Below, piece after piece: positions 438 to 1,946 of a stretch of 64,000 nucleotides of DNA (position 1 is the stretch's first letter; every line of letters begins with the position of its first letter). The position numbers were made by a program, and so were the translations under genes. Under the pieces are notes generated by a model. The model was not told the origin of the DNA, did no database searches, and saw nothing but the letters and a program-made list of their open reading frames with translations. Source of the DNA: Brevundimonas vesicularis NBRC 12165 (GTDB taxonomy: Bacteria > Pseudomonadota > Alphaproteobacteria > Caulobacterales > Caulobacteraceae); assembly GCF_001592205.1 (NCBI RefSeq), contig NZ_BCWM01000004.1:1-64000 (forward strand). The letters are read 5' to 3'.

Positions 438-1946
438 ATGCACGACATCAGAGCCATTCGCGAGAACCCCCAGGTTTACGTGGCGGGCTGGTCGTCGCGC
501 GGGGTGGACGAGGCCGATGGGCTGGTGGCGGACATCCTGCGGCTGGACGGCGAACTGCGTCACGCCCAGACGACGGGTCAGGACGCCCTGGCCAAGCGTA
601 ATGCAGCCTCCAAGCTGATCGGCGCCGCCATGGGGCGCAAGGACATGGCAGAGGCGGATCGCCTCAAGGCCGAGGTCGAGGCGCTGAAAGGCGACATCGC
701 TGCGGCGTCCGAGGTCGAGGCGCGCGTCGGCAAGGAGCTGCGCGACCTGCTGGCGGCGCAGAAGAACCTGGCGGCCGAGGATGTGCCGGACGGCGAGGAC
801 GAGGCGGCCAATGTCGAGGTCTCGACCTGGGGCGAGCCGCGTCGCACCGGTCCGGCCAAGGATCACGCCGACCTGGGCGAGGCCCTGGGGATGCTGGACT
901 TCGAGGCGGCGGCGAAGATGTCGGGCGCGCGGTTCGCGGTGCTGAAAGGGCAGTTGGCGCGGCTGGAACGGGCCGTGGGCCAGTTCATGCTCGATTTGCA
1001 GACGGACCAGCACGGGTATCTGGAGGTGAACCCGCCGTATCTGGTGCGGGACGACGCGATGTTCGGCACGGGGCAGTTGCCGAAGTTTGAGGAGGATCTG
1101 TTCAAAGCGACTTTCCTCGATAAAGACGCCGCCTACGCCATCGCAAGTGACCGGACTAAAGTTGTCGAGCAGCATCTGATCGACAAGGCGTATGCCGAGG
1201 TTGATCGTCTAGTGTCCTCTGGCGCTCAGGTCGCTGATGTCCTGATGGCTAGCTATGAGGAACTGCAATCCGAACTGAAGAATGCGTGGGCTTTCAACTA
1301 CTTTGATGCCGTTGAGGCGGAACTCGCTAAAGAGCGCCGCTACCTCATCCCCACCGCCGAAGTCTCCCTGACCAATCTCGTGCGCGAGACCATCCTGTCC
1401 GAGGACGAGCTGGCGACGCCGATGCGGATGACGGCGCTGACGCCGTGCTTCCGGGCCGAGGCGGGGTCGGCGGGGCGCGATACGCGCGGGCTGATCCGCC
1501 AGCACCAGTTCTCGAAGGTCGAGATGGTGTCCATCGCGCGGCCGGAGGACTCAGACGCCGAGCACGAGCGGATGACGGCCTGTGCGGAGGCGGTGCTGAA
1601 GGCGCTGGAGCTGCCGTTCCGGCGGATGCTGCTGTGCAAGGGCGACATGGGCTTTTCGGCGCAGAAGACCTTCGACCTGGAGGTCTGGCTGCCCAGCCAG
1701 GGAACCTATCGCGAGATCAGCAGCTGTTCGAACTGCGGAGACTTCCAAGCGCGGCGCATGGATGCGCGGTTCAAGCGCGCCGGCGAGAAGAAGACCGAGT
1801 TCGTCCATACGCTGAACGGCTCGGGCCTGGCGGTCGGCCGGACGCTGGTGGCGATCATGGAAAACTATCAGCAGGACGACGGCCGGATCGCCGTGCCGAA
1901 GGTGTTGCAGCCCTATATGGGCGGTGTGGAGTTCGTGGGCGGCTGA
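438..1946 (+). CDS. serS: Seryl-tRNA synthetase with an unusual internal insertion
   Basis: Charges tRNA-Ser (and tRNA-Sec where present) with serine in the cytoplasm. Class II synthetase layout: an N-terminal long coiled-coil tRNA-binding arm (roughly residues 30-110), then the catalytic domain. It contains [36 protein letters not shown], the motif 2 segment [19 protein letters not shown] and the motif 3 segment [19 protein letters not shown]. It has 502 residues, whereas family members usually have about 425-435. The excess is one block near residues 224-301, between LPKFEEDLF and YLIPTAE, annotated separately. The reading frame is intact on both sides and all catalytic motifs are present, so the enzyme is probably active. 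The stop overlaps the surE start by one base. Confidence 0.97.
1116..1322 (+). other. In-frame 207-nt (69-codon) low-GC insertion inside serS
   Basis: E. coli SerRS has a loop of about 15 residues between its LPKF..DLF and YLIPTAE/YALIPTAE motifs; here there are nearly 80. Over 1107-1340 I count about 128 G+C of 234 (about 55%), against about 73% in the 120 bases from 1441. Codons rare in the neighbours (GCT, ACT, AGT, CTA, GTT, AAA) cluster here. The bases 1116-1142 and 1323-1349 align without gaps at 19 of 27 positions in the same frame, encoding LDKDAAYAI and LAKERRYLI. That is what a duplicated junction around an in-frame insertion would look like. The encoded segment is rich in Glu, Asp and Ala and looks mostly helical. 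It shows no intein motifs and matches no domain I recognise. Confidence 0.75.

Follow-up and report, generated by a model that had tools for sequence, protein, structure and literature searches.

Essential aminoacyl-tRNA synthetases are expected to be stable, yet the first gene of the window (the whole 64,000-nucleotide stretch of Brevundimonas vesicularis DNA analysed here) encodes a seryl-tRNA synthetase (SerRS) with an extra, compositionally odd block in its catalytic domain, at a position where even close species differ in what they carry. What is this segment, and what maintains it? The answer put forward here, tentative but a good possibility, is that it represents one allele of a SerRS domain that is hypervariable, passes horizontally between lineages, sits in a single permissive loop and has been shaped by a contest over the enzyme, in which phages are the likeliest opponents.

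The insert and its host gene

The open reading frame of 502 codons on the forward strand (Table 1) yields a full-length match to the SerRS profile TIGR00414 (488.5 bits; cut-off 301.65), a fold search with its product returned SerRS structures as best matches, and the large conserved blocks of the catalytic domain are intact in the alignment. Three proteins of the same genome match PF00587, namely SerRS, ThrRS and ProRS, so that a single SerRS was found. Upstream of the gene, positions 210-356 of the window carry inverted ends, cctccccatgtcatggggagg ... cctccccacaattggggagg, and resemble by eye a small palindromic repeat element.

Table 1. Coordinates of serS, its insert and the genes that follow it in the window
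Feature	Positions	Strand	Basis or remark
serS, seryl-tRNA synthetase (SerRS), 502 aa	438..1946	+	TIGR00414 profile match
Upstream anchor LPKFEEDLF	1077..1103	+	L214-F217 and D220-F222 invariant in 30 aligned sequences
Hypervariable insert, family F08, 80 residues (K223-Y302), GC 54%	1104..1343	+	Conserved anchors
Direct repeat, copy 1 (imperfect, 27 bases)	1116..1142	+	19/27 identity with copy 2
Predicted helix 1 of the insert, residues 229-260	1122..1217	+	AlphaFold2 model
Predicted helix 2 of the insert, residues 265-298	1230..1331	+	AlphaFold2 model
Direct repeat, copy 2 (imperfect, 27 bases)	1323..1349	+	207 bases from copy 1
T-A-E codons, T306-E308	1353..1361	+	Invariant in 30 aligned sequences
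surE	1946..2740	+	Overlaps the serS stop
pcm, protein-L-isoaspartate O-methyltransferase	2737..3381	+	ORF list and profile match

As delimited by conserved anchors, the extra block comprises residues 223-302, lies in frame between LPKFEEDLF and LIPTAE, and amounts to a net excess of about 73 residues over the 6-7-residue short form found in the same genus. Its last residue is four positions before T306 of the TAE motif, which presumably lines the serine pocket. An earlier note on this DNA had attributed the unusual length of the enzyme to a single in-frame block, as is indeed the case, and had placed it at 1107-1349, only slightly off the anchor-defined borders. Its estimate of about 55% GC also agrees with the 54% measured here (68% in the remaining serS; GC3 0.60 vs 0.87), whereas the 73% given for the downstream part was slightly high, the 200-base windows starting at 1301, 1351 and 1401 having 69-72%.

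The imperfect direct repeat that the note described is present precisely as it stated. Among 300 junction shuffles of this serS the maximum was 18 matching positions and none reached 19 (mean 14.3), while the other 82 of the 83 inserts tested score 13-17; the repeat is thus real in this gene, where it is the best of all, but not general. No second copy of the insert was found in its own genome, the next best match being 19 bases long (E 0.375). When the block was searched alone across 131 genomes of the genus, as the note had proposed, the SerRS of genome G059 proved its only convincing relative (56% identical, E 2.6e-21), the remaining matches had E values of 0.02 or worse, and no convincing homologue outside SerRS emerged.

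A site of variable content

The genus set consisted of 131 genomes, one per species and some of them metagenome-assembled, of which 122 matched the C-terminal part of SerRS at E <= 1e-40. The site was read in 121 of these (one from a partial gene, L138), G151 being left out as a fragment of 114 residues. Thirty genes carry a loop of 6-7 residues and 91 an insert of 19-119 residues (median 58), and all 121 are open through the site, a requirement of the script by which no further genome was lost. Inserts of different families occur in the single-contig genomes G009, G028, G039, G108 and G148. Clustering by BLASTP (E < 1e-3 across half the length) sorts the 91 inserts into 59 BLAST-level families, 40 of them singletons. 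This is an upper count of unrelated inserts, since a remote-homology profile comparison, made for two groups (the window's own insert and F01) against the others, joined the singleton L012 to F01 (84%); the F01 profile also reached L192 and L196 outside the genus (97%), and the own insert gave an hhalign probability of at most 2.5% against 101 other insert groups.

The inserts share a composition unlike that of their hosts. Mean GC3 is 0.61 vs 0.88 in the host part; 90 of the 91 inserts have a lower GC3 than their host part, and 88 a lower total GC. Such low GC3 could mean that the DNA came from elsewhere, or that the stretch recombines poorly and changes fast. Net charge is negative in 86 of 91 (mean -3.7), and cysteine makes up 0.1% of residues vs 1.2% in the host part. 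Six genes without insert (L142, L150-L153 and L155) have different site surroundings (KLPKFADDLF, SLTATVMGQ), which looks as if a segment of serS was replaced; L145 and L146 group with them in the tree of flanking sequences.

This variability is not shared by the two control synthetases. ProRS and ThrRS were each matched in 128 of the 131 genus genomes, in two pieces in 5 and 6 genomes, respectively, and neither displays a gap of the kind that the SerRS insert produces. The pieces lie on different contigs save in two cases, an overlapping, frameshift-like break in the ProRS of G101 and a second partial copy of ThrRS in G102; for the ProRS of G005, the second contig bears a nearly whole second copy.

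Searches of sequence libraries, made with the 88 inserts of 24 residues or more, returned one marginal match each in Pfam (E 0.0078) and NCBIfam (E 0.0095), none in PHROGs, none among the PADLOC models of anti-phage defence, no intein model at E <= 0.01 in Pfam or NCBIfam, and no mobile-element match. The own insert matched no solved structure at E <= 1. Viral contigs bearing insert family F02 were not found, and the five viral contigs with a SerRS have short loops. SerRS occurs in 97 plasmid records, and the 40 matches listed span at most about 1.3 kb, so these 40 have no such insert. Three Escherichia coli plasmid records of 73-88 kb (NZ_CP148399.1, NZ_CP148584.1 and NZ_CP134387.1) are annotated with serS, and could represent extra copies or assembly matters. 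No earlier description of a variable SerRS insert was found in the open literature, a scope outside which most subscription journals fall.

These results bear on the earlier proposal of a single foreign insertion with duplication of the junction, which is not supported: the site is filled with other segments across the genus (91 of 121 genes) and in much of the order, the repeat was not seen in the other 82 inserts tested, and no second copy exists in the genome searched. An origin as an intein, a palindromic element or other self-inserting DNA is exceedingly improbable. The single site, the patchy distribution, the odd composition and the junction repeat of the window's serS would each suit such an element, but the insert is single-copy, its junction repeat is not general, none of the 88 inserts resembles an intein or mobile element, and inteins are larger.

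Constraint, exchange and reach

The inserts are translated and are probably folded. Over 5,552 insert codons, stops make up 3.1% and 6.0% of the other two forward frames, and within-family dN/dS lies at 0.07-0.33 in 7 of 16 pairs, another eight being saturated at synonymous sites and one identical. Structure prediction, a further suggestion of the earlier note, gives the own insert two long helices folded into a hairpin, with block pLDDT values of 89-93 for residues 231-290 and of 68 and 76 for the end blocks (76 for 291-300). AlphaFold2 assigns the same hairpin to the F01 insert of L002 (helices 229-261 and 265-296; block pLDDT 87-92), and profile comparison detects no homology between the two, so that two inserts without detectable homology are predicted to share one helical form, in models that are both monomers with weak cores (whole-model mean pLDDT 75.3 and 74.0). 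Some other inserts, such as that of L011, look non-helical when their sequences are read by eye.

That the loop simply tolerates any in-frame DNA as a neutral passenger is very unlikely on these grounds, and already disfavoured. The diversity, the low GC and the short loops of relatives would all be accounted for, yet the site stays open in 121 genes in spite of stops at 3.1% and 6.0% in the alternative frames, dN/dS is low wherever it is calculable, related inserts occur across genera, and two models contain fairly confident predicted helices. Of the earlier note's reading, an additional, compositionally odd in-frame block of the catalytic domain is supported, and of the selected and neutral states that it left open, the selected one is the more likely.

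Comparison of each insert with its flanks indicates that inserts have been exchanged between lineages rather than inherited with the gene, flank identity hardly agreeing with insert family. Among insert-bearing pairs whose flanks are at least 97% identical, only 1 of 25 shares a family, as do 4 of 156 at 95-97%. With the insert removed, a tree of the flanks was built by a quick method that left 50 of its 118 inner branches open; on it, the 51 rows of the 19 multi-member families require 38 changes, against a minimum of 18 and a shuffled mean of 41.7. A slight signal of descent remains, because only 4 of 500 label shuffles gave 38 changes or fewer; the families are slightly less scattered than random. 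Presence or absence of an insert takes 16 changes on the same tree (27.2 on average after shuffling, with no shuffle among 500 reaching so low a number). Transfer is directly visible in two pairs: the insert DNA of L015 and L105 is 94% identical with flanks at 76% and 85%, and the inserts of L064 and L082 are 100% identical with flanks at 94% and 95%. Many shared families are older than recent transfer, as exemplified by L001 and L018, whose inserts (59%) have diverged further than their flanks (70% and 82%).

Many exchanged alleles, as a locus under diversifying conflict should have, are therefore present; dN/dS above 1 within families, which such a locus should likewise show, was not seen in the seven pairs where it was calculable, and with values below 1 positive selection on point changes lacks support. 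Exchange and long divergence could alternatively have generated the diversity of the inserts.

Beyond the genus, the site was surveyed with a site-spanning query of 156 residues, whose match is split in two by inserts of 24 and 25 residues but not by those of 19, and may also be split by contig ends. Read with these limits, two-piece matches were obtained in 37 of 47 Brevundimonas genomes, 17 of 46 from the rest of the family and 105 of 293 from other families of the order, or 159 of 386 matched genomes (398 searched; one three-piece genome uncounted). Thirty two-piece genomes outside the genus were fetched, and an insert was read in 27, the anchors failing in 3. Elsewhere in the class, the match was split in two in 24 of 372 matched genomes, 14 with an insert, 5 without and 5 unread by the anchors. 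Of 43 inserts read beyond the genus, nine are matched by one from Brevundimonas, including those of L180, L182 and L188 from other genera of the family and of L208 and L212 from outside the order. The F01 profile, run against 249 genomes of the order, had matches at E <= 0.01 in six: four strong ones (E 2.8e-9 or better), all in SerRS, in the already known G169, G171 and G269 and in L334 (G305), and three weak ones (E 7e-4 to 0.009; G341, G171 and G325) with none of three SerRS motifs nearby. In L334, from a single-contig genome, the SerRS frame is interrupted around the insert, either through error or by a real break.

A stable counterpart to the variable inserts exists in genus g12, whose L193, L195 and L197 bear a related 50-residue insert of near-host GC3; L192 and L196 also carry related inserts of near-host GC3. 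The earlier note held that a block found in all Caulobacterales with host-like composition would be an old lineage trait. Use of the site is indeed order-wide, but inserts are found in only some genomes, differ in sequence and, lineages such as the five just named excepted, mostly lack host-like composition.

Synthetase insertion domains commonly tune tRNA recognition, stability or partner binding, and the inserts might likewise be lineage-specific adjustments of tRNA-Ser recognition, stability or a partner protein, turning over fast since the loop is permissive. The predicted helices and the retention of related inserts in some lineages favour this explanation, which is nonetheless unlikely: 24 of the 25 pairs with nearly identical flanks differ in insert family, 30 of 121 genes do without an insert, and mostly acidic inserts would suit tRNA contact poorly. 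A seryl-adenylate drug as the driver, a possibility aired in the earlier note, would fit poorly with such diversity of insert sequence.

Giant phages and a proposed conflict over SerRS

Twenty-five of 50,697 phage records match the window's SerRS. Seven of these are giant Brevundimonas phages (Gurke, Kikimora, Domovoi, Papperlapapp, Kabachok, Bambus and Marchewka), all with B. pondensis as host, whose SerRS is 47-50% identical to that of the window. The phage enzymes are insert-free by match length, the matches spanning 1269-1278 bases, and in Gurke alone the loop was also read directly. The seven enzymes form two groups about 52% identical, in phages whose terminases are 72% identical. A terminase search returned 73 records, 38 from Caulobacter and 8 from Brevundimonas phages, and SerRS was found neither in the Caulobacter relatives nor in the eighth Brevundimonas phage, Bajun (207 kb). 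The other 18 records matching SerRS (including Listeria, Enterococcus, Staphylococcus and Acinetobacter ones) were judged to be probable host DNA or distant and were put aside, as the listed Listeria, Enterococcus and Staphylococcus records are unannotated and ProRS and ThrRS occur in similar records.

SerRS is the only annotated aminoacyl-tRNA synthetase of Gurke among all its annotated features, most genes being hypothetical, and the tRNA genes of this phage cover many amino acids, with four for serine. Genes for an RtcB (L322:15195-16409), a tRNA nucleotidyltransferase (L324:21327-22502) and a tRNA-His guanylyltransferase (L321:19154-19939) look like a tRNA repair set. Giant Brevundimonas phages are reported to have 24 or more tRNA genes (PMC10070969), in an article whose main text contains neither "seryl" nor "tRNA synthetase". 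Searches with ProRS and ThrRS matched 32 and 41 phage records, none of them from Brevundimonas phages. A threonyl-tRNA synthetase is, on the other hand, encoded by two giant phages that infect other alphaproteobacteria (Sinorhizobium phage Phosso and Agrobacterium phage Atu_ph07), and carriage of a synthetase is thus by itself no sign of conflict. Directly after the phage SerRS, and overlapping its end, lies a small open reading frame (L319:11293-11517; L320:11311-11577), 43% identical between Gurke and Papperlapapp over 61 residues and without a match in NCBIfam. It was found in four records, all of giant Brevundimonas phages, the annotated neighbours under the match differing in Marchewka, and its product is a candidate partner or SerRS-directed protein.

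From this body of observations we infer both an antagonist and a function for the insert. A protein antagonist, most likely phage-borne, would attack or manipulate SerRS, and the insert would offer it a changeable surface serving as shield or decoy. Inserts that are new or uncommon would block the antagonist, so that rare alleles would be favoured, and alleles could spread by homologous recombination in the conserved flanks. Gene transfer agents, which occur in alphaproteobacteria, would be a possible vehicle. The insert-free SerRS of the giant phages would then keep tRNA-Ser charging going once the host enzyme is out of play. Counting against conflict are the 30 of 121 genes without an insert and the related inserts of near-host GC3 that some lineages keep. 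The searches made turned up no inhibitor, toxin or defence system directed at SerRS, and the phage link rests on seven phages of one host.

A bolder form of this proposal, which seems possible though it is advanced with some reserve, is that in the Caulobacterales an immune module has been built into SerRS, an exchangeable bait or shield of variable content, to which phages answer with a bait-free SerRS. It would be an intrinsic defence within the translation machinery itself, and serS a polymorphic compatibility locus. Somewhat doubtful, by comparison, is that the insert serves as a sensor or integrated decoy, whereby phage proteins that bind or cut it would switch SerRS off and abort infection, the giant phages countering with their bait-free enzyme. 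The position of the insert next to the TAE motif, its diversity and exchange, the bait-free phage SerRS, and the RtcB, tRNA nucleotidyltransferase and many tRNAs of Gurke, as if translation were attacked, all accord with it. No trigger is known, however, the PADLOC and PHROGs searches gave 0 of 88, and the present data are equally compatible with the shield. The site offers a ready test of attackers of SerRS, of exchangeable domains in a core enzyme and of the reason why some giant phages bring a SerRS, and its inserts may provide a lead to natural protein inhibitors of this enzyme.

Several known systems resemble this locus in part. Synthetase insertion domains are likewise extra segments at one site of a catalytic domain, but are conserved within a lineage, whereas the content of the SerRS insert changes between close species and is exchanged (59 families in 91 inserts; 1 of the 25 closest pairs alike). 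The palindromic elements of Rickettsia are also in-frame, foreign-looking insertions in alphaproteobacterial coding genes, yet are dispersed repeats within a genome, while the SerRS insert is single-copy in its own genome and inserts were seen at one SerRS site. Inteins, too, occur in frame near an active-site motif of essential enzymes and are horizontally shared; the SerRS inserts differ in having 19-119 residues and in the lack of any intein match among 88. The giant Brevundimonas phages possess the same enzyme family and infect the same genus, with a SerRS that differs in being insert-free and only 47-50% identical to that of the window. The L4 loop of MxA and the integrated decoys of plant NLRs are host features engaged in arms races, in which a variable surface on a conserved scaffold evolves by conflict; here the scaffold is an essential bacterial enzyme, the segment is replaced as a whole and the antagonist is putative.
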